A stretch of DNA of 64,000 nt, taken from positions 575,037-639,036 of the forward strand of contig VXVC01000004.1 of assembly GCA_009836625.1 (NCBI GenBank), written 5' to 3'. Every line of letters starts with the position of its first letter. Position 1 is the first letter of the stretch. Below the pieces are notes generated by a model. That model was not told the origin of the DNA. It saw only the letters and a list, made by a program, of their open reading frames with translations, and did not search any database. The DNA comes from Holophagales bacterium (lineage in GTDB: Bacteria > Acidobacteriota > Thermoanaerobaculia > Multivoradales > Multivoraceae). Below, one piece after another: positions 35,731-44,912 of this stretch. A program made the translations under genes and the position numbers.

Positions 35731-37287
35731 ATGAACGGCGCCCAGGCCATGCTCCGGACCGCGGCCAACGCGGGCGTCGAAGTCTGCTTCGCGAATCCCG
35801 GCACGTCCGAGATCCACCTCGTCGCCGCGCTCGACGAGATCCCCGGCGTGCGCGGCGTCCTCGCCCAGTTCGAAGGGGTGGCCACCGGCGCCGCCGACGG
35901 GTACGGCCGCATGACCGGCAAGCCCGCCCTGACTCTGGTTCATCTCGGACCGGGCTTCGCGAACGGATTCGCCAACCTTCACAACGCCCGCCGAGGACGC
36001 ACTCCCCTGGTCAACGTGATCGGTCACCACCCGACATGGCACCGGAACTACGATCCGCCGCTCAACACCGAGGTCGAGAGTCTGGTCCGGGCTGTGTCCG
36101 ACTGGCAGCGCACCGCGGCCTCCGCGGAGCACATCTCCCGCGACATGGCGGACGCCATCTCGGCGGCGCGCCGCCATCCCGGACAGATCGCCACCCTGAT
36201 CGTGCCCACCGACTGCCAGTGGAACGAGGCGTACGGTCCGATCGTCGAACCGACTCCGCCACCGGCCGCACTCGTCGGCCCCGAGGCGGTCGAGCGGGCG
36301 CGCATCGCCACGTCGAAGGGTGAGCGAACGATGCTGATGCTCGGCAGCTCCGGCTTCACCGAAGCCGCCCAACGCCAGGCCGCCCGGGTGCAGGCGAAGA
36401 CCGACTGCCGGCTCACTGCCGAGACCTTCTGCGGACGCATGGAGCGCGGCCCCCATCTGCCGGCGCTGCCGCGAGTGCCCTACTTCCCCGAACAGGCGGT
36501 TGAGTTCTTCCGCGGCGTCGACACGGTGGTCCTGGCCGGCGCTCTCGATCCGGTCGCCTTCTTCGGCTACGAGGGTGGAGTCAGCCGTTTGATCCCGGAG
36601 TCGACGGAGGTCGTCGTCCTCAGCCATCCAACCGAGGACAGCGGCCACGCCCTCCGCGAACTGGCCGGCGCGCTCGACGCGAAGGAAGAACCGCCGGCCC
36701 GGAACATCGAGAGACCGCCGGTGCCCTCCGGCCCGATCGGAGTCCGCGTCGCCGCTCAGGCGATCGCCGCCACCCTGCCCGAGCAGGCGATCGTGATGGA
36801 CGAGGGGATCACCGCCGGCGCCGGCTTCTACCCCGCCACGATGAACGCACCGGCCCACACCTATCTCCAGGAGAACGGCGGGGCGATCGGCATGGGCCTG
36901 CCGGCTTCCCTCGGGGCCGCGATCGCCTGTCCGGACCGCAAAGTCCTGAATCTCGAGGGCGACGGCAGCGGCCTCTACACGATCCAGGCGCTGTGGAGCC
37001 AGGTCCGCGAGGGCGTCGACGTCGTCAACCTCGTGTTCGCGAACGACGTCTACCGCATCCTCCAGGTGGAGCTGCACCGCGCCGGGGTCGAGGAGCTCGG
37101 GCCGCAGAGCGTCAACCTGACCGACCTCTCCGGCCCCCGCGTCGAGTGGCTCGATCTGGCCCGGGGCTTCGGCATGCCGGCGGTCCAGGTGCGGACCGGC
37201 GAGGAGCTCACGGAGGCGCTCGAGCGCGGCTTCGCCGAACCGGGTCCCTGCCTGATCGAGGCGATGGTCGACGACAGAGCCTCCTAG
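35731..37287 (+). CDS. ThDP-dependent enzyme, acetolactate synthase/benzoylformate decarboxylase-like
   Basis: 518 aa. The N-terminal ThDP-binding half includes the activating glutamate in AQFEGVATGAADGYGR. The C-terminal half holds the diphosphate-binding GDGSGLYT motif with a downstream asparagine (FANDVYRI). The FAD-type central domain is shortened. It is usually annotated as an acetolactate-synthase large-subunit-like protein; the shape fits 2-oxoacid decarboxylases such as benzoylformate decarboxylase equally well. No small regulatory subunit gene is adjacent. In the context of aromatic genes, a phenylglyoxylate- or phenylpyruvate-type 2-oxoacid is a reasonable candidate substrate (inference). 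Confidence 0.8.
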   Translation: MNGAQAMLRTAANAGVEVCFANPGTSEIHLVAALDEIPGVRGVLAQFEGVATGAADGYGRMTGKPALTLVHLGPGFANGFANLHNARRGRTPLVNVIGHHPTWHRNYDPPLNTEVESLVRAVSDWQRTAASAEHISRDMADAISAARRHPGQIATLIVPTDCQWNEAYGPIVEPTPPPAALVGPEAVERARIATSKGERTMLMLGSSGFTEAAQRQAARVQAKTDCRLTAETFCGRMERGPHLPALPRVPYFPEQAVEFFRGVDTVVLAGALDPVAFFGYEGGVSRLIPESTEVVVLSHPTEDSGHALRELAGALDAKEEPPARNIERPPVPSGPIGVRVAAQAIAATLPEQAIVMDEGITAGAGFYPATMNAPAHTYLQENGGAIGMGLPASLGAAIACPDRKVLNLEGDGSGLYTIQALWSQVREGVDVVNLVFANDVYRILQVELHRAGVEELGPQSVNLTDLSGPRVEWLDLARGFGMPAVQVRTGEELTEALERGFAEPGPCLIEAMVDDRAS

Positions 37288-37291
37288 CAGC

Positions 37292-38329
37292 TTGAAGTAC
37301 TCGGTCACTCTCCTCCCGGGAGACGGAATCGGCCCCGAGGTCAGCAAGGCGATGGTCCGCGCGGTCGACTTCGTCACCGGCGGCCGCATCGACTGGGAGC
37401 CGGTCGTTGCCGGCAGCACGGCCGTCGACCAAGGACTCTCGCCGCTCCCTGACGAGGCGATCGACTCCATCCGCCGCAACCGGATCGCGATCAAGGGACC
37501 CCTGCAGACGCCGGTCGCCGGCGGCTGGCGCAGCGTGAACGTACTCCTTCGCCAGTCGCTGGAACTGTTCGCCTGCGTCAGACCCGTGCGCTCGATGCCG
37601 GGGAACACGCTGGCCCGCTACCAGGGCGTCGACCAGGTCATCGTGCGCGAGAACACGGAAGGGCTCTACAGCGGCCGCGAGCACGAAGTCGTCGACGGTG
37701 TCGTCGAGGCGCTCAAGATCGTCACGAGGGACGCGTCGCGGCGGATCATGCAGTTCGCCTTCGAGTACGCCCGCAGCCATGGCCGCAAGAAACTCACGAT
37801 CGTCCACAAAGCCTCGATCACGCCCCTCTCGGACAACCTGTTTCTGGATTGCGCACGCGAGTGCGAGCGGAACTACCCCTTCTTTCAGGTCGAGTACCTG
37901 CCGCTCGACAATCTCGCGCTCGACCTCGCCACCGACCCGACCCGCTTCGACATGCTCGTGATGGGCAACCTGGACGGCGACCTGATCAGCGACCTCTGCG
38001 CCGGACTGGTCGGCGGCCTGGGTGTCGTTCCGGGCGCGAACTACGGTGAGGGCTGCGCCGTCTTCGAGGCGGTCCACGGCACGGCGCCCGACATCGCCGG
38101 CCGCGACCTGGCCAACCCGATCGCTCTCATCCTGTCGGCCGAGTTGATGCTCCGCTATGTGGGCGAAGCCGACGCGGCCGACCACCTGCGCGCCGGGGTC
38201 GAGCGGCTGCTGGTTGCCGGCAAGTCGCTCACCCGGGACCTGGGCGGATCGGCGAACACCTCCGAACTCACGGACGCGCTCCTGGCCGAACTTGACGCCG
38301 TCGCCGGGGAACGGGACGACGCCCGATGA
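37292..38329 (+). CDS. Isocitrate/isopropylmalate dehydrogenase family protein, probable NAD-isocitrate dehydrogenase catalytic subunit
   Basis: 345 aa. Canonical beta-decarboxylating dehydrogenase: LLPGDGIGPEVS at the N-terminus, the isocitrate-type substrate loop RSVNVLLRQ (SxN), VRENTEGLYSG, catalytic lysine in VHKASI, aspartates in DNLALDL and DGDLISDL, and the nucleotide loop HGTAPDIAGRDLANP. The loop sequence favours NAD over NADP (no downstream Lys/Tyr pair; inference). TTG start at 37292, four bases after the ThDP gene stop. It is directly followed by a paralogue with a 4-base overlap. Confidence 0.88.
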   Translation: MKYSVTLLPGDGIGPEVSKAMVRAVDFVTGGRIDWEPVVAGSTAVDQGLSPLPDEAIDSIRRNRIAIKGPLQTPVAGGWRSVNVLLRQSLELFACVRPVRSMPGNTLARYQGVDQVIVRENTEGLYSGREHEVVDGVVEALKIVTRDASRRIMQFAFEYARSHGRKKLTIVHKASITPLSDNLFLDCARECERNYPFFQVEYLPLDNLALDLATDPTRFDMLVMGNLDGDLISDLCAGLVGGLGVVPGANYGEGCAVFEAVHGTAPDIAGRDLANPIALILSAELMLRYVGEADAADHLRAGVERLLVAGKSLTRDLGGSANTSELTDALLAELDAVAGERDDAR

Positions 38330-39369
38330 CTGCCTCCGACAAGACCGCTGCCCGGCCCCGGGTCGCCCTGATCGTGGGCAGTATCGGCATCGGCGCCGAG
38401 ACCGCGCCGCCGGTGCTCGAGATCCTGGAGTCCGTTGGCGCCGACTTCGACTTCGTCCGCGTCGACGTGCCGACCGCGGTGCGCCGCAACACGGAGAGTG
38501 TCCTGGGCGAAGCGGCCGACACGATCCGCGAGTGCCGGGTGGCGCTGAAGACCCGCCTCATCGGCCCGGGTCGCGACGCCGTGCGGGTGGGGCCGGGACC
38601 GCAGAACCCGAACGTCGCCCTGCGGCAGATGCTCGGGCTCTGGGCCAGCGTGCGTCCCGTGCGTTCGATTCCGGGGCTGCCGACCCGCTATCCCGACCTC
38701 GACGTGCTGCTCATCCGCGAGATCACCGAGAGCGTCTACCGCGGCATCGAGCACGAGATCGTGGACGGCGTGGTCGAGAGCATGAAGGTGGTCAGCCGCG
38801 CGGCGTGTGAACGCATTGCCGACTATGCCTTCCGCATCGCCCAGCGTCACGGACGCCGGAAGGTCACCGCCATCCACAAGGCGAACATCATGAAGCAGAG
38901 CGACGGCCTGTTCCTGGACACGGTCCGGTCGATCGCCGCCGGCTACGCCGACATCGAGGTGGACGACTGCATCGTCGACGCGGCCTGCATGCGTCTCGTG
39001 CTGAATCCGTACGACTTCGACGTGATGCTGATGGAGAACCTCTACGGCGACATCCTGAGCAACTTAGGCGCCGGCCTCGCCGGCGGCATCTCCACCGGCC
39101 ATGCGATCAACGTCGGCGACGACTGCCACGTCTTCGAGGCCGTCCACGGTGACGCCCCGCACCTGATCGGCACCGGCCAGGCGAACCTGCTGCCGCTGCT
39201 CACACCGGCGATCGCGCTACTCCGGCACTTCGACCTCTACGACGAAGCGAACCGGATCGATCAGGCGGTGACCAACGTCCTCGAGGAAGGCCGGAGCCTG
39301 ACACCCGATCTGGGCGGCAAGTCGTCCACCTGGCAGATGGCGCGCAGCATCATCGCGGCGATGAACTAG
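38326..39369 (+). CDS. Isocitrate dehydrogenase-like paralogue, degenerate substrate and nucleotide loops
   Basis: 347 aa, overlapping the previous gene by ATGA. Same fold, but key loops are changed: the glycine-rich N-terminus reads GSIGIGAETAPP instead of GDGIGPEV, the SxN loop reads NPNVALRQ, RENTEG is REITESVY, and the nucleotide loop reads HGDAPHLIGTGQANL. The catalytic lysine (IHKANI) and the aspartates (ENLYGDILS) remain. I infer a non-catalytic or regulatory partner of the upstream protein, analogous to heteromeric eukaryotic IDH3. Its end overlaps the convergent fusion gene by 20 bases. Confidence 0.82.
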   Translation: MTASDKTAARPRVALIVGSIGIGAETAPPVLEILESVGADFDFVRVDVPTAVRRNTESVLGEAADTIRECRVALKTRLIGPGRDAVRVGPGPQNPNVALRQMLGLWASVRPVRSIPGLPTRYPDLDVLLIREITESVYRGIEHEIVDGVVESMKVVSRAACERIADYAFRIAQRHGRRKVTAIHKANIMKQSDGLFLDTVRSIAAGYADIEVDDCIVDAACMRLVLNPYDFDVMLMENLYGDILSNLGAGLAGGISTGHAINVGDDCHVFEAVHGDAPHLIGTGQANLLPLLTPAIALLRHFDLYDEANRIDQAVTNVLEEGRSLTPDLGGKSSTWQMARSIIAAMN

Positions 39370-41665
39370 GTCTCAGCCCGGCCAGTAGCCGCGCCAATCC
39401 CGCGCGCACACGCTCCACTTCCGCACTGCTCAGATACGGGGCGAGGACCTCGAAGTCCGCACCGTCGGGCTCATCGACACTTCCGGCTGCCAGCACCCGT
39501 AGCGAACGCACCTGGCGCTCCCCCAGTCGGATCAGGGCCGGGCGGATCTCCTCCAGCTCCAGTGTGGGCGCCGCGGCCGGCGTCCGGCGCTGGACCGCCT
39601 TGGCCAGGTCGATCTGAAGCGCGAACCAGTCGCGTACCGGCTGCGGATCGAGGCCGAAGCGGGCAGCGTTCCGTTCGGCCGCCGCCAGCACCGCGCGTTC
39701 CCGTTCCAGGTCCTCTATCGGCGCACCCCGCGCCGACTTCCACGAGGCGACAACCGGCATGAAGGCGAGCCGGCGAGCCGTCAGGTCGAGCAGATGGTCC
39801 AGCTCGTCCCGCTCCTGGCCGCTGCCGAACCACTCCTCGCGGCGGGCCTCGAGCCAGCGCTCGCTGCGCTGGACCCAGCGGTCGACCGCGGGCCCGAGAT
39901 CATCCGCCCGTTCTGGAGCAACCCAGAACACCTTGCGGTCGAGCGATGGTTCGCAGCGACGCCGCCATCCGTCACGGCCGAAGTGCTCGACCTCGAACGA
40001 ATCGGTGACGAAGGCGTCCACTTCGTCCCGTTCCAGGCGGCCGGGCAGCGAGAGGTTGTCGTCGACCGCGGTGATCCCGGTGGCGCCGTCTCCAAAGCGC
40101 TCCCGCGTCCAGCTCTCCAGGATGCCGCCGCGATTGACGGCCACGCGGCGCGGCGGCTCGGGCGCGGACGTCGCGCTGACCACGCAGGGACCGCCCGCCG
40201 CGACCGCCCGGCTCATCCACCCCACTGCGGCGCGCCCGGGCCGCCAGGTAACGCCGCTCATCGCGAGGTCGAAGTCATCCGCAGCCATCGACGCCGCCAG
40301 GTCCGGCCAGTCGAAGGGGCGGAAGTCCAGGTCGAAGCCGAGGTCGGAGGCGAGTCGTTCGGCGACCTCGATGTCGAAGCCCAGGCGGGCCGTCTCTTCG
40401 TCCACGGCCCCCTCGACGGTCGAGAAAGGGGGATAGTCGCCACTGGTCCCGACGCGGAGCACCGGCTTCGCGGGCACGGCGGACTGCGCCGCCGAGGAGG
40501 CCTCGTCCAGTTCCGCGGCGGTGAAGCGCACCGAAGCGATCCAGGGCTCCTCCCCCGGCGTGAAGTGGCCGTACGTCGTGGCAACGAAGGTGCCGTCCGG
40601 CAGCAGTTCGAGGCCCGGGTACGCCGTGTCCGCGGCATACCTGTTGTCCATCAGCCGCACCCGCGCCTCGCCCGCCCAGGGCTCACGGCCCCCGCGCCGC
40701 AGGTCCTGGTACTGGCCCAGCCAGCCCACCCAGTCGCCGCGCCAGGGGCTGGACGGCTCCTGGTCGCGGAACGTGATGAAGAGGCGGCCGTCCGGCGTGT
40801 AGCGGCCGACATGCCGATCCCCGGTCAGCGAGGACGGCAGTTCGATCGGCCGGCTCCAGGTGCGGCCCTCGTCGGGCGAGAAGACGACGAAGGAGTTGAA
40901 CTGGCGGCTGTTCTCCCGCAGCAGCACGGCGATCTCGCGGCCGTCGGGAGACCGGATCAGACCCGGCTCGCAGAGGTGCGCCTCCGGGTGCTCGGCGATG
41001 ATCTCGGGTTCCGACCACGTGAGACCGTCGTCGAGCGAGATCGTCTTGTAGACCTTGAACTCGGGTTCGAAGCCGGGAATCCGCTCGTAGCGGGACGTCG
41101 GCCGGCGGAAGAAGCGTCCGTCGTCGTGGAACAGCGCCATCAGCTCTCCGTCCAGGCTGCGCAGCCGTTCGACCGACGACATCGCGACGACGCCGCCGAA
41201 GTGACCGATCGGCTCGAGCCCGGTCCAGGTCGCGCCCTCGTCCTCCGAGCGCGCCATCCGCACCGGGTAGAGCCCCGAGAACATGATGAGGCGCCGCCGG
41301 CCGTCCGCGAGATCGACCGGAAAGACGGTCGGCGTCTCCATCGATGTCGCCCAGCTCGCCGGCGTCGGCAACCGCCCGCTCCACGTGAGCCCGCCGTCCT
41401 CGCTCCGCTTCATGACGATCGGGCCAGCGCCGTGGCCCTTCGGGTAGACGGTCAGGATCGAGCGCTGGTCGGAGAGGAGAACCGTCGTCGGATGGCCGAG
41501 GTACTGCCCCGGTTCCCGGTCGACAACGACCTGGCGATGGGTTTCGCCCGCCCAGTCGACCCAGCGGAGCGGCTCGTCGCCTGCGCCCCGGCAGGCCAGC
41601 GCCGCCGGCAGCAGGAGCGCCGCGAGCAGCACGACGATCCGGGGCTGGACCGAAGCCGAGGTCAC
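39350..41665 (-). CDS. Secreted fusion: sialidase-like propeller + cyclohexadienyl dehydratase (PheC-like) + chorismate mutase (AroQ-type)
   Basis: 771 aa in one open frame. The GTG start at 41665 overlaps the alkD-like stop (GTGA) and gives a signal peptide ending at LPAALAC (possible lipoprotein). Residues about 26-395 form a BNR/sialidase-like propeller with four Asp-boxes (SEDGGLTW, SEDEGATW, SLDDGLTW, SPDEGRTW). Residues 403-612 resemble periplasmic cyclohexadienyl dehydratase: LRVGTSGDYPPFS, DFDLAMSGVTW, VNRGG and TDSFE, where the glutamate matches the catalytic one in that family. Residues 621-705 resemble secreted AroQ chorismate mutase: LLDLTARRLAFMPVVASWK, PIEDLERE, and ALQIDLAKAVQRR. 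The last two domains would turn chorismate to prephenate to phenylpyruvate (or arogenate to phenylalanine) outside the cytoplasm. A sialidase activity is not supported: no FRIP motif. Confidence 0.85.
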   Translation of the reverse strand: MTSASVQPRIVVLLAALLLPAALACRGAGDEPLRWVDWAGETHRQVVVDREPGQYLGHPTTVLLSDQRSILTVYPKGHGAGPIVMKRSEDGGLTWSGRLPTPASWATSMETPTVFPVDLADGRRRLIMFSGLYPVRMARSEDEGATWTGLEPIGHFGGVVAMSSVERLRSLDGELMALFHDDGRFFRRPTSRYERIPGFEPEFKVYKTISLDDGLTWSEPEIIAEHPEAHLCEPGLIRSPDGREIAVLLRENSRQFNSFVVFSPDEGRTWSRPIELPSSLTGDRHVGRYTPDGRLFITFRDQEPSSPWRGDWVGWLGQYQDLRRGGREPWAGEARVRLMDNRYAADTAYPGLELLPDGTFVATTYGHFTPGEEPWIASVRFTAAELDEASSAAQSAVPAKPVLRVGTSGDYPPFSTVEGAVDEETARLGFDIEVAERLASDLGFDLDFRPFDWPDLAASMAADDFDLAMSGVTWRPGRAAVGWMSRAVAAGGPCVVSATSAPEPPRRVAVNRGGILESWTRERFGDGATGITAVDDNLSLPGRLERDEVDAFVTDSFEVEHFGRDGWRRRCEPSLDRKVFWVAPERADDLGPAVDRWVQRSERWLEARREEWFGSGQERDELDHLLDLTARRLAFMPVVASWKSARGAPIEDLERERAVLAAAERNAARFGLDPQPVRDWFALQIDLAKAVQRRTPAAAPTLELEEIRPALIRLGERQVRSLRVLAAGSVDEPDGADFEVLAPYLSSAEVERVRAGLARLLAGLRPSSSPR

Positions 41666-42393
41666 GCCTCGTTCCTCAAGTTCTTCAGCGCCTCCCGCCG
41701 GCTGAGCGGACTCAGTCCCTCCTCGTGCTCCCGCACGAAGCGCCGCACTTCGTGAGGATCGTGCCAGGCCAGGTCGCGCAGCGCCCAGCCGATCGCCTTG
41801 CGGATGAAGAACTCGCCGCCGAAGCGGGACCCCAGCAGGTTCTCGCCGATCGTCGCGTGCAGAAGCTCCAGGTCCGTCGCGCCCTTGCGGCCGAGCTGGC
41901 AGATCATCGACGCGCGCCGCTTCCACATGTCGGGGCACCGGCTCCACACGTTCATCCGTTTCGCCATCGTCTTCGGATACCGCTCGACGAGTTCCCGTAG
42001 GCGGTGGCTCGCAACGGCGTCCACGTAGTCCCACCAGGCGCCGGTCACGATCATCTCCTCGAAGACCGGCAGAGCCTTCATCGTGCGCAGGGGCTTGTAC
42101 GCCCGGTAGCCGCTGAGGTCGACCGCGGCGTGCCGTTCCTCGCGGCGGCCGGCGGTCCGCCAAAGCGTCAGAACGGTCGAGCGCCACTCCTCGAAGCCTT
42201 CCAGCGGGTGGTTCCGGAAAGCCGCGCGGCCGATCTTCCGCAGTTCCGGCGTCTTCACGCCCCAGAACGGAATCTCCGACTTCATGTAGGCCTGCTGGCC
42301 CTTTGCCCGCTCGGGGTCTCCGGCGGCCTTCAATTCGCGCCGCAGTTCCAGAATCAGCTTCCGGCCCGCCGGCGGGGGCCGCAGTTCAGACAT
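41662..42393 (-). CDS. AlkD-like DNA alkylation repair protein
   Basis: 243 aa of HEAT-like helical repeats: [47 protein letters not shown] and [19 protein letters not shown] are hallmarks of the AlkC/AlkD glycosylase family, which excises alkylated bases, with the catalytic aspartate in WDYVD. Cytoplasmic. The ATG at 42393 lies 8 bases after a TACGAT box. It overlaps the downstream fusion gene by GTGA, an unexpected pairing with a secreted enzyme. Confidence 0.9.
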
Positions 42394-42401
42394 CGCGTCG
42401 A

Positions 42402-42407
42402 ATCGTA
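42402..42407 (-). promoter_or_regulatory. Candidate -10 box for alkD-like gene (leaderless-type)
   Basis: TACGAT read leftward, 8 bases before the ATG at 42393; no Shine-Dalgarno sequence in between. Confidence 0.5.
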
Positions 42408-42430
42408 CAGGCGGTGGGTTTCGCGGCGGG

Positions 42431-42436
42431 TATCCT
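42431..42436 (+). promoter_or_regulatory. Candidate -10 box for DUF255 gene (leaderless-type)
   Basis: TATCCT, 7 bases before the GTG at 42444; supports that start over the longer upstream reading. It faces the alkD-like box 23 bases away on the other strand. Confidence 0.5.
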
Positions 42437-42443
42437 CGATGCC

Positions 42444-44912
42444 GTGCCTGTTGCCGCCTGGATCGCAGGGGGCCTTACCGTCGTCTGGCTGTCCGTGTCG
42501 AACGCCCCCGCCCTCGCCGTCCCGCCTCCGGGCGCCGGAGCGCGCCCGCCGAAGCTCCAGGCCAGGCTGGAAGCGGCCCTGACGGCGATGCCGGACGACT
42601 ACGAGCCCCGGACCGAGCATCTGGATCCGGACGGCCGACCACTGTTCCTGAATCGGCTCGTCCTCGAAACCTCGCCCTATCTCCGACAGCACGCTCACAA
42701 CCCCGTCGACTGGTTCCCCTGGGGCGAAGAGGCCTTCGAACGGGCAAAGGCGGAGGACAAGCCCGTCTTCCTCTCGATCGGCTACTCCACCTGCCACTGG
42801 TGCCACGTGATGGAGCGCGAGAGCTTCGACAACGTGGAAGTCGCGCGCCTGATGAACGAGCTGTTCATCTGCATCAAGGTGGACCGGGAGCAGCGGCCCG
42901 ACATCGACGACATCTACATGACCGCGGTCCAGGTCACCCAGCAACGGGGCGGCTGGCCGATGTCGAGCTTCCTGCTCCCCGACCGGCGGCCCTTCTTCGG
43001 CGCCACGTACTTTCCGCCCCAGCAGTTCGTCAACCTGATGCGTCAGGTCGACGCGGCGTGGCGGGAGCGCAGAGCCGACCTCGAAACGAGCGCCGCCCAG
43101 ATCACGGACCTCGTTCAGCAGATCACCGCGGCCCGCGGCGCTGCCAAGAACCTGGGTCGGGCGGTGATCGGCGAAGCGGTTCAGGGCCTCGTGGCCAGCA
43201 CGGACCGGGTCCACGGCGGCTTCGGCGGGGCGCCCAAGTTCCCCAACGAAACCAACCTCCTGCTGCTGCTCGAGGAGGCGCTCCGCACCGGCGACCGGGC
43301 GCCGCTCGACGCGGCCCTGCTCACCCTGCGCGCGATGGCGCGCGGCGGCATCCACGACCAGGTCGGCGGCGGTTTCCACCGCTACTCGGTGGACGGGCAC
43401 TGGCTGGTGCCCCACTTCGAGAAGATGCTCTACAACCAGGCCCACCTGCTCCGCGCCTACGCGCTGGCCTACCGGCTGACCGGCGATCCGCTACTGGCGC
43501 GGGTGGCCCGCGAGACCGCGGACTACGTCCTGCGCGACATGACCTCCCCGGCGGGCGCCTTCTACTCCGCCACCGACGCGGACAGCGAGGCCGAGGACGG
43601 CGAGTCGGTCGAGGGCGAGTTCTTCGTCTGGACCAAGGACCAGTTACGGGAGGCCCTGGAGCCCGCCGACGCCGAACTGACGATTCGCCTCTTCGGCGTT
43701 ACTGACGCGGGGAACTTCGAACACCGGAACATCCTCTTCCTCGACCGGCCGCTGGACGAGAGCGCCGCCGACTTCGGACTGCCGCTGGACGGGCTGCTCA
43801 ACCGGCTCGACGACATCCGCGAGCGCCTCTACCAGGTCCGCGAGCATCGTCCCCATCCGCTGCGCGACGACAAGGTACTCACCTCCTGGAACGGGATGAT
43901 GATCCACGCCCTGGCCGAGGCCGCCGACGCGCTCGCCGAGCCGTCCTACGCCGAGGCCGCCGCGCGGGCGGCGGAGTTCCTCTGGCGCAACAGCCGCCGC
44001 GAGGACGGCGGCCTGTGGCGCGTCTGGCTCGACGGTCAGGCCTCGACTCCTGGCCTGGTCCAGGACTACGCCCACCTGGCTCACGCGTTCGTCGCTCTTT
44101 ACGACGTGACCTCCGGCAGCAAGTGGCTTGAACGGTCGGCGACCGTCGCGGCGGAGATGGTCGATCGCTTCTGGGATCCCACTCCCGCTCCGGTGGAGGA
44201 AGGCAGCCCCAGACAGCCGAGCCCCGGCAGCGGTTTCTTCATCGCCGAGCGGGAGAAGGCCAACCTGCTGATCGCCCAGCCCAAAAGCCCGACCGACGGC
44301 GCCGTTCCCTCCGGCAACTCGGTGGCCGTCCGCGCCCTGGCCGAACTCGGCCGCCGCACCGGCGACCGGAACGTCACCGACCGCGCCCTCGCCACCGTCG
44401 CCGCGTTCGCCACCAACATCGAGAGGATGCCGGCTGCCTACACCTACATGCTGACCGGACTCGCCGTGGCCCTCGACGGCAACGCCGGTCCCCGGGCCAC
44501 CGCCGGCAACGGCGCCGTCCTCGCCGCCGCCTCCCTGCGACCCGCCGACGATGCCGGCGAGTACGAAGTCGACGTCGACCTCGTGATCAAGGAAGGCTGG
44601 CACCTGAACGGCCCCGAGCCGCTCCAGGAAGACCTGATCGGCACCACCGTCGAAGGCACCGGCGGCCGCTTCGACATCACCAACCTCCGCTACCCGGAAC
44701 CTCGGCTAACCCAGGTCAGCACCCAGTCCGGTGACGTTCTGATCTACGAAGGCCGGCAGCGCATCTCGTTCCGGCTCCGCCCGACCTCGACCTCTGATCC
44801 GCGACCCGTATCGATCCCGATTTCTCTCCGACTCCAGGCCTGCGACGACCAGCTCTGTCTACTCCCCGAGACGGTCGTCCTCGAGGTCCCCCTGGGTGCG
44901 CGGGTCTTCTGA
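42444..44912 (+). CDS. DUF255 thioredoxin-domain protein (YyaL/SPATA20-like), exported
   Basis: 822 aa. The GTG start gives a signal peptide ([20 protein letters not shown]). The N-terminal DUF255 thioredoxin-like domain has [21 protein letters not shown] and [14 protein letters not shown] with a CxxC pair (about 116-119), then TGGWP-like [10 protein letters not shown]. An (alpha/alpha)6 barrel resembling AGE/glycoside hydrolases follows ([37 protein letters not shown]). The last ~110 residues are an added beta-rich domain ([18 protein letters not shown] onwards) resembling the N-terminal domain of DsbD-type proteins. Activity unknown for the family. The last codons and stop lie inside the left arm of a 143-bp inverted-repeat element. 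Confidence 0.88.

Follow-up and report, generated by a model that had tools for sequence, protein, structure and literature searches.

A predicted lipoprotein joining a sialidase-like propeller, a cyclohexadienyl dehydratase-like domain and a chorismate mutase in a genus of Acidobacteriota

The window, by which we mean the whole 64,000-nucleotide stretch of Holophagales DNA analyzed here, encodes a protein in which a predicted lipoprotein signal, a sialidase-fold propeller, a solute-binding fold resembling cyclohexadienyl dehydratase (CDT) and an AroQ-type chorismate mutase (CM) follow one another in a single chain (Table 1). The domains and their conservation, the lipobox, a probable single origin of the propeller and the conserved catalytic residues are shown computationally. 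The reading we favor, at a probability of about 0.5, is that a lipid-anchored CM and CDT-like pair works on chorismate outside the cytoplasm, where the propeller places it at a glycan, and that it serves in sensing or scavenging. Exported fusions of CM and CDT are a published kind; what is new, within the literature searched, is the addition of a propeller, the change in the dehydratase site, the lineage and how widely the pair is distributed. Chorismate is normally a cytoplasmic compound, and this protein bears on why bacteria export enzymes that use it.

Table 1. Features of the three-part gene, with positions in the window.
Feature	Position	Strand	Basis
Three-part gene (propeller, CDT-like domain, chorismate mutase), 771 aa	39350..41665	-	translation, profiles, orthologues
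Predicted lipoprotein signal, residues 1-25, lipobox AALA-C	41591..41665	-	PS51257 pattern
Sialidase-fold (BNR/Asp-box) propeller, residues 28-397	40475..41584	-	BNR_2 and sialidase profile matches, low-confidence model
Asp-box 1, SEDGGLTW, residues 88-95	41381..41404	-	motif SxDxGxTW
Asp-box 2, SEDEGATW, residues 140-147	41225..41248	-	motif SxDxGxTW
Asp-box 3, SLDDGLTW, residues 210-217	41015..41038	-	motif SxDxGxTW
Asp-box 4, SPDEGRTW, residues 263-270	40856..40879	-	motif SxDxGxTW
Cyclohexadienyl dehydratase-like solute-binding fold, residues 403-614	39824..40459	-	Pfam, PDB profiles, alignment, model
TDSFE (554-558); E558 equivalent to the essential Glu173 of PaCDT	39992..40006	-	alignment
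I515-L516 replacing Thr132-Asn133 of PaCDT, a clade-wide change	40118..40123	-	alignment
AroQ-type chorismate mutase, residues 618-745 (R632, K643, D652, R655, V659, A688, K689, Q692)	39431..39814	-	profiles, alignment

The Three-Part Gene and Its Neighborhood

The frame runs without an internal stop from a GTG start at 41665 to a stop codon ending at 39350, and its translation bears out the one uninterrupted 771-codon frame that the sequence-only reading had described. The three domain assignments of that reading also hold, each with a Pfam match above its cut-off: BNR_2 from residue 44 (48.3 bits, cut-off 31.4), SBP_bac_3 at 403-614 (54.5 bits, cut-off 26.4) and CM_2 at 624-693 (38.4 bits, cut-off 27). 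A long plus-strand frame overlaps the same stretch; an antisense reading is disfavored, all profile matches having come from the minus-strand frame, the one to which separate searches were applied. A fusion made by the assembly, named at the outset as something that would overturn the proposal, is ruled out because the gene recurs as an intact single frame in 16 of the 20 other genomes of the genus, one copy being from a single-contig assembly and another from an assembly of three contigs. No copy was found in three of the 20, all of them drafts, two less than 90% complete and the third in 490 contigs. The 17th copy, in G014, is split by an insertion sequence, so the gene is not essential in that congener. 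The interrupting element is of IS1595 type (L144:3350-5810), has 26-bp inverted ends, and also bears cytosine C5-methyltransferase-like and HNH genes.

The median dN/dS is 0.11 for the propeller, 0.20 for the CDT-like domain and 0.23 for the CM; purifying selection maintains all three parts, the propeller most strongly. Synonymous divergence is uneven along some copies: between L037-L040 and the window gene it is 0.5-0.6 in the CDT and CM parts and 0.26-0.35 in the propeller, a roughly twofold gap that suggests recombination within the gene.

An upstream DNA alkylation repair gene (41662-42393) overlaps the start of the three-part gene by four bases, and a downstream gene (38326-39369, plus strand) converges on it with a 20-base overlap. 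The neighbors, which comprise the DNA alkylation repair gene, two isocitrate/isopropylmalate dehydrogenases, a thiamine-diphosphate enzyme and a DsbH-type protein, show synteny within the genus, and in the congener loci read with their flanks the three-part gene lies between the same ones. As an operon clue they give no pathway link: none of them hints at chorismate, transport or signaling, and no glycan gene cluster adjoins. The two-part forms and standalone propellers described below have no consistent neighbors either, these varying between lineages. Two features of the flanks are recorded in passing. The thiamine-diphosphate enzyme and the two adjacent dehydrogenase paralogues lie nearly end to end at 35731-39369, and the DsbH-type (DUF255) frame at 42303-44912 has GlcNAc-2-epimerase-like and DsbD N-terminal matches.

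The export signal, a hydrophobic stretch with a lipobox, is recognized by pattern only: residues 1-25 match PS51257 with the cysteine at position 25, and so do all 16 intact congener copies. The match agrees with the signal peptide proposed earlier and makes a lipoprotein anchored through Cys25 more likely than free secretion; the surface location proposed there is putative, a periplasmic one being the alternative.

Relationship to the Published Exported Fusions

In the PDB, the C-terminal half finds its best matches in enzymes that are exported and bifunctional (8cq6, 8cq4 and 8cq3, with E down to 5.6e-23), and its model, at a pLDDT of about 90, matches 8cq6 at Z 22.5. The inter-domain pose of the full model lies 23 Å rmsd from that of 8cq6. 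These entries are the crystal structures DsCDTCM (8cq6), JbCDTCM (8cq4) and AfCMCDT (8cq3) of exported CM/CDT fusions, a kind reported from nine beta- and gamma-proteobacterial species and called extremely rare (Stocker 2023, PMC10520331). The sequence-only reading had given periplasmic CM and CDT as known in the form of separate proteins, and these crystallized single-chain enzymes correct it. What does stand is its view that no example of the three-part arrangement had been described: a text search found no paper joining a sialidase-like propeller to either CM or CDT, within the literature covered.

The window protein resembles the published fusions in carrying CDT and then CM in one exported chain, which is the beta-proteobacterial order, in the CM site residues V76, A/S105, K106 and Q109, in the essential CDT glutamate, and in coming from a genome that also has a cytoplasmic P-protein. 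It differs in being about 26-31% identical to them by structure alignment, in having K100, T132 and N133 replaced, in its lipoprotein signal and N-terminal propeller, and in coming from Acidobacteriota. Nine active-site residues of PaCDT, the PheC of Pseudomonas aeruginosa, are conserved in the published fusions (PMC10520331). Because just six of the nine are found here, we describe the group to which the window protein belongs as a sister clade of those fusions and do not count it among them.

That the protein carries out ordinary phenylalanine synthesis relocated outside the cytoplasm is hardly credible, although the two reactions are consecutive in that pathway and Pseudomonas exports its PheC (PMC10520331). 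The P-protein mentioned above, a cytoplasmic CM-prephenate dehydratase-ACT protein, is encoded elsewhere in the same genome (by sequence reading and a CM_2 match), and so a phenylalanine-making housekeeping role is unlikely. Moreover, the characterized fusions, which have a low Km for chorismate and no feedback inhibition, were judged not biosynthetic, and a signaling role was suggested for them (PMC10520331).

The CM domain agrees with the AroQ-type helical domain predicted earlier, its PF01817 match being above the gathering score and the Arg, Lys and Arg of the AroQ site being present as R632, K643 and R655. Like the exported AroQ-gamma enzymes of the Mycobacterium tuberculosis type, it keeps R49, K60, I67, D69 and R72 in the alignment. 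Unlike them, it is part of a fusion and replaces Q76, T105, E106 and E109 with the fusion-specific V76, A105, K106 and Q109 (V659, A688, K689 and Q692 of the window protein), and against the NCBIfam AroQ-gamma model TIGR01806 it scores 50 bits, under the cut-off of 74.15.

The CDT-like Domain

The PheC-like domain with its TDxxE motif was correctly recognized from the sequence. The domain model matches PaCDT (3kbr, 5hpq) at Z 20.8 and rmsd 2.2 for 5hpq; for AncCDT-1, an ancestral precursor that binds amino acids, the match has Z 21.4. With JbCDTCM, DsCDTCM and AncCDT-3 as references, the active-site alignment has Glu173 and five other PaCDT residues kept (Y22, W60, N128, N152 and T169), and Lys100, Thr132 and Asn133 replaced; the window protein differs from PaCDT at these three positions and in being fused to CM and a propeller. 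Across the clade, Tyr22, Trp60, Asn128, Asn152 and Glu173 are present in every aligned member, and Thr169 is kept in most, with Ser or Ala in some. Lys100 has become Ala or Pro, Thr132 has become His, Ile, Val, Ala, Tyr or Phe, and Asn133 is always Leu. The equivalent of Arg112 of JbCDTCM is kept in the clade and that of Lys225 mostly so; both residues contact the ligand in JbCDTCM (PMC10520331). The domain also has two cysteines, C494 and C571, not aligned column by column with the disulfide-forming Cys pair of the Stocker 2023 fusions.

Changing the essential glutamate to glutamine abolished CDT activity in the characterized enzymes (PMC10520331). Since the clade keeps this residue yet replaces Lys100, Thr132 and Asn133, dehydratase activity is only probable, and with three of the nine PaCDT site positions differing clade-wide, dehydration may have changed or disappeared. 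The label CDT is thus one that we infer from sequence. As for the chorismate-to-phenylpyruvate enzyme proposed earlier, its domains and essential glutamate are there, both of its steps are putative, and the second may be affected by the three replacements. It is possible, though we regard it as doubtful, that the CM is active and the CDT-like domain no longer dehydrates, binding prephenate or another aromatic acid instead as a lipid-anchored sensor or scavenger. The clade-wide replacements would suit such a change, as would a fold that is common to amino-acid-binding proteins and the match to AncCDT-1. However, the general-acid glutamate, N128 and N152 are invariant in the aligned members, retention of the glutamate is not expected of a pure binder, and the CM in the same chain suggests that prephenate is the substrate.

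The Propeller

All four Asp-boxes expected from the sequence were found, beginning at residues 88, 140, 210 and 263. The propeller shares them with the GH33 sialidases and other BNR/Asp-box propellers (PF13088); the profile of its family matches sialidases at 2e-14. In this profile match its Arg250, Arg300 and Tyr349 each align with the same amino acid in the sialidase, which makes them candidates, at sequence level, for the nucleophile Tyr and the remaining Arg pair of GH33. The propeller model, made from a shallow alignment, has fold matches to Dfer_1899 (5hx0), a Pseudomonas pseudaminidase and a Porphyromonas sialidase, which are supporting only, the pLDDT being 48.6. Unlike the GH33 sialidases, it has no RIP motif before Asp-box 1, where GHPT is found instead, and its sole RIP comes after residue 190, within a stretch absent from the standalone relatives. 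We therefore do not file it as GH33; it belongs to an uncharacterized subfamily (GHPTT...YPKGHG).

No second copy of the propeller was found in the genus at the threshold used. Acidobacteriota of other families have standalone relatives with 58-66% identity, and this module also lies C-terminal to a sulfatase (L137, 2421-5030, plus strand) and to a GDSL hydrolase (L139, 5029-7005, plus strand) in other Acidobacteriota. The fused propeller retains the residues conserved across the standalone family; conserved positions include H58, H78, R184, E233, R250, R284, R300 and Y349. Whether alone or with sulfatase or GDSL hydrolase, these relatives point to carbohydrates, and the two kinds of fusion are our reason for considering that the propeller may have a catalytic function and not just a binding one. 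The sialidase-type fold within the earlier description, a carbohydrate-binding-like propeller, is upheld by the profiles; a role in binding only is in doubt given those fusions.

An unlikely extension of this line is that catalysis falls chiefly to the propeller, as a member of some undescribed glycoside hydrolase or lyase family, with the CDT-CM part as an accessory handling a released aromatic or enolpyruvyl product. It would account for the propeller being the most conserved part, at the dN/dS given above, for the kept family residues, and for the sulfatase and GDSL hydrolase fusions of its relatives. Propeller-less two-part CDT-CM proteins are common, however, and imply a role of the enzyme pair's own; we know of no glycan that yields chorismate, and the locus lacks an adjoining glycan gene cluster. 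A three-step extracellular enzyme is very improbable. In it the propeller, as a hydrolase of an undescribed family, would release from a glycan or glycoside some aromatic or enolpyruvyl compound, either chorismate or one of its conjugates, for immediate processing by the CM and CDT, as an aid to life in sponge tissue.

Returning to the favored reading of a glycan-placed CM and CDT-like pair, we infer both enzyme activities, the localization, the glycan target of the propeller and the biological role as follows. The lipoprotein would be anchored in the membrane, facing the periplasm or the outside, and would meet chorismate leaked by the cell itself or released from lysed neighbors. The CM would convert chorismate to prephenate, and the CDT-like domain would convert prephenate to phenylpyruvate, as in the characterized two-domain exported fusions. 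The propeller, drawn from a carbohydrate-active family and presumably inserted once between signal and CDT in the sponge-symbiont genus, would most likely bind or act on a sugar polymer and so hold the enzyme on the surface of a glycan. There the protein would most likely serve to sense or scavenge aromatic precursors, rather than for housekeeping synthesis of phenylalanine. The ligand of the propeller would tell where the enzyme works and would thereby give a handle on the question of export.

Distribution and Descent

Two short peptide patterns were run against 84,980 species genomes, which gives lower bounds: at least 15 three-part loci and at least 24 two-part CDT-CM loci. The sequence-only reading had called for a search for the architecture in other Acidobacteriota genomes, and there it is found, with all the three-part loci in one genus (named member Candidatus Multivorans), which we take to be sponge-living from isolate names and general knowledge. 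The two-part loci, one of which is truncated where its contig ends, are in Myxococcota, Binatota, unplaced Proteobacteria and Acidobacteriota. A profile search was run on phylum samples that include the seed genomes. In the phylum to which Sorangium belongs it gave matches in 42 of 237 genomes, about 40 of which span CDT as well as CM; for the Binatota phylum the figure was 4 of 148, three of them spanning the two domains and one of these three having an in-frame stop. Against the nine species published, then, this is a second, divergent clade of the exported pair, common in the phylum of Sorangium and reaching Binatota and Acidobacteriota. Two-part forms are present in named strains of Sorangium and Hyalangium, which makes them directly testable. 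Long Myxococcota frames were considered as candidates for other N-terminal fusions, and the readable ones are stop-to-stop overruns.

In the tree, all three-part proteins group in a single clade (100/99) that lies among two-part proteins, and this nesting makes one gain of the propeller, within the sponge-symbiont genus, probable. The next branch is a two-part protein of Thermoanaerobaculia (L044), with weaker support (93/82). One genus has kept a sugar-type propeller on the enzyme pair across at least 16 species. A different pairing occurs in the same order: in G043, a PQQ/BamB-like propeller has a chorismate mutase joined to its C-terminal side (PF13360 and PF01817; L143:6793-8685, minus strand), and among the matches listed this copy is the only one in the order to match over the CM part.
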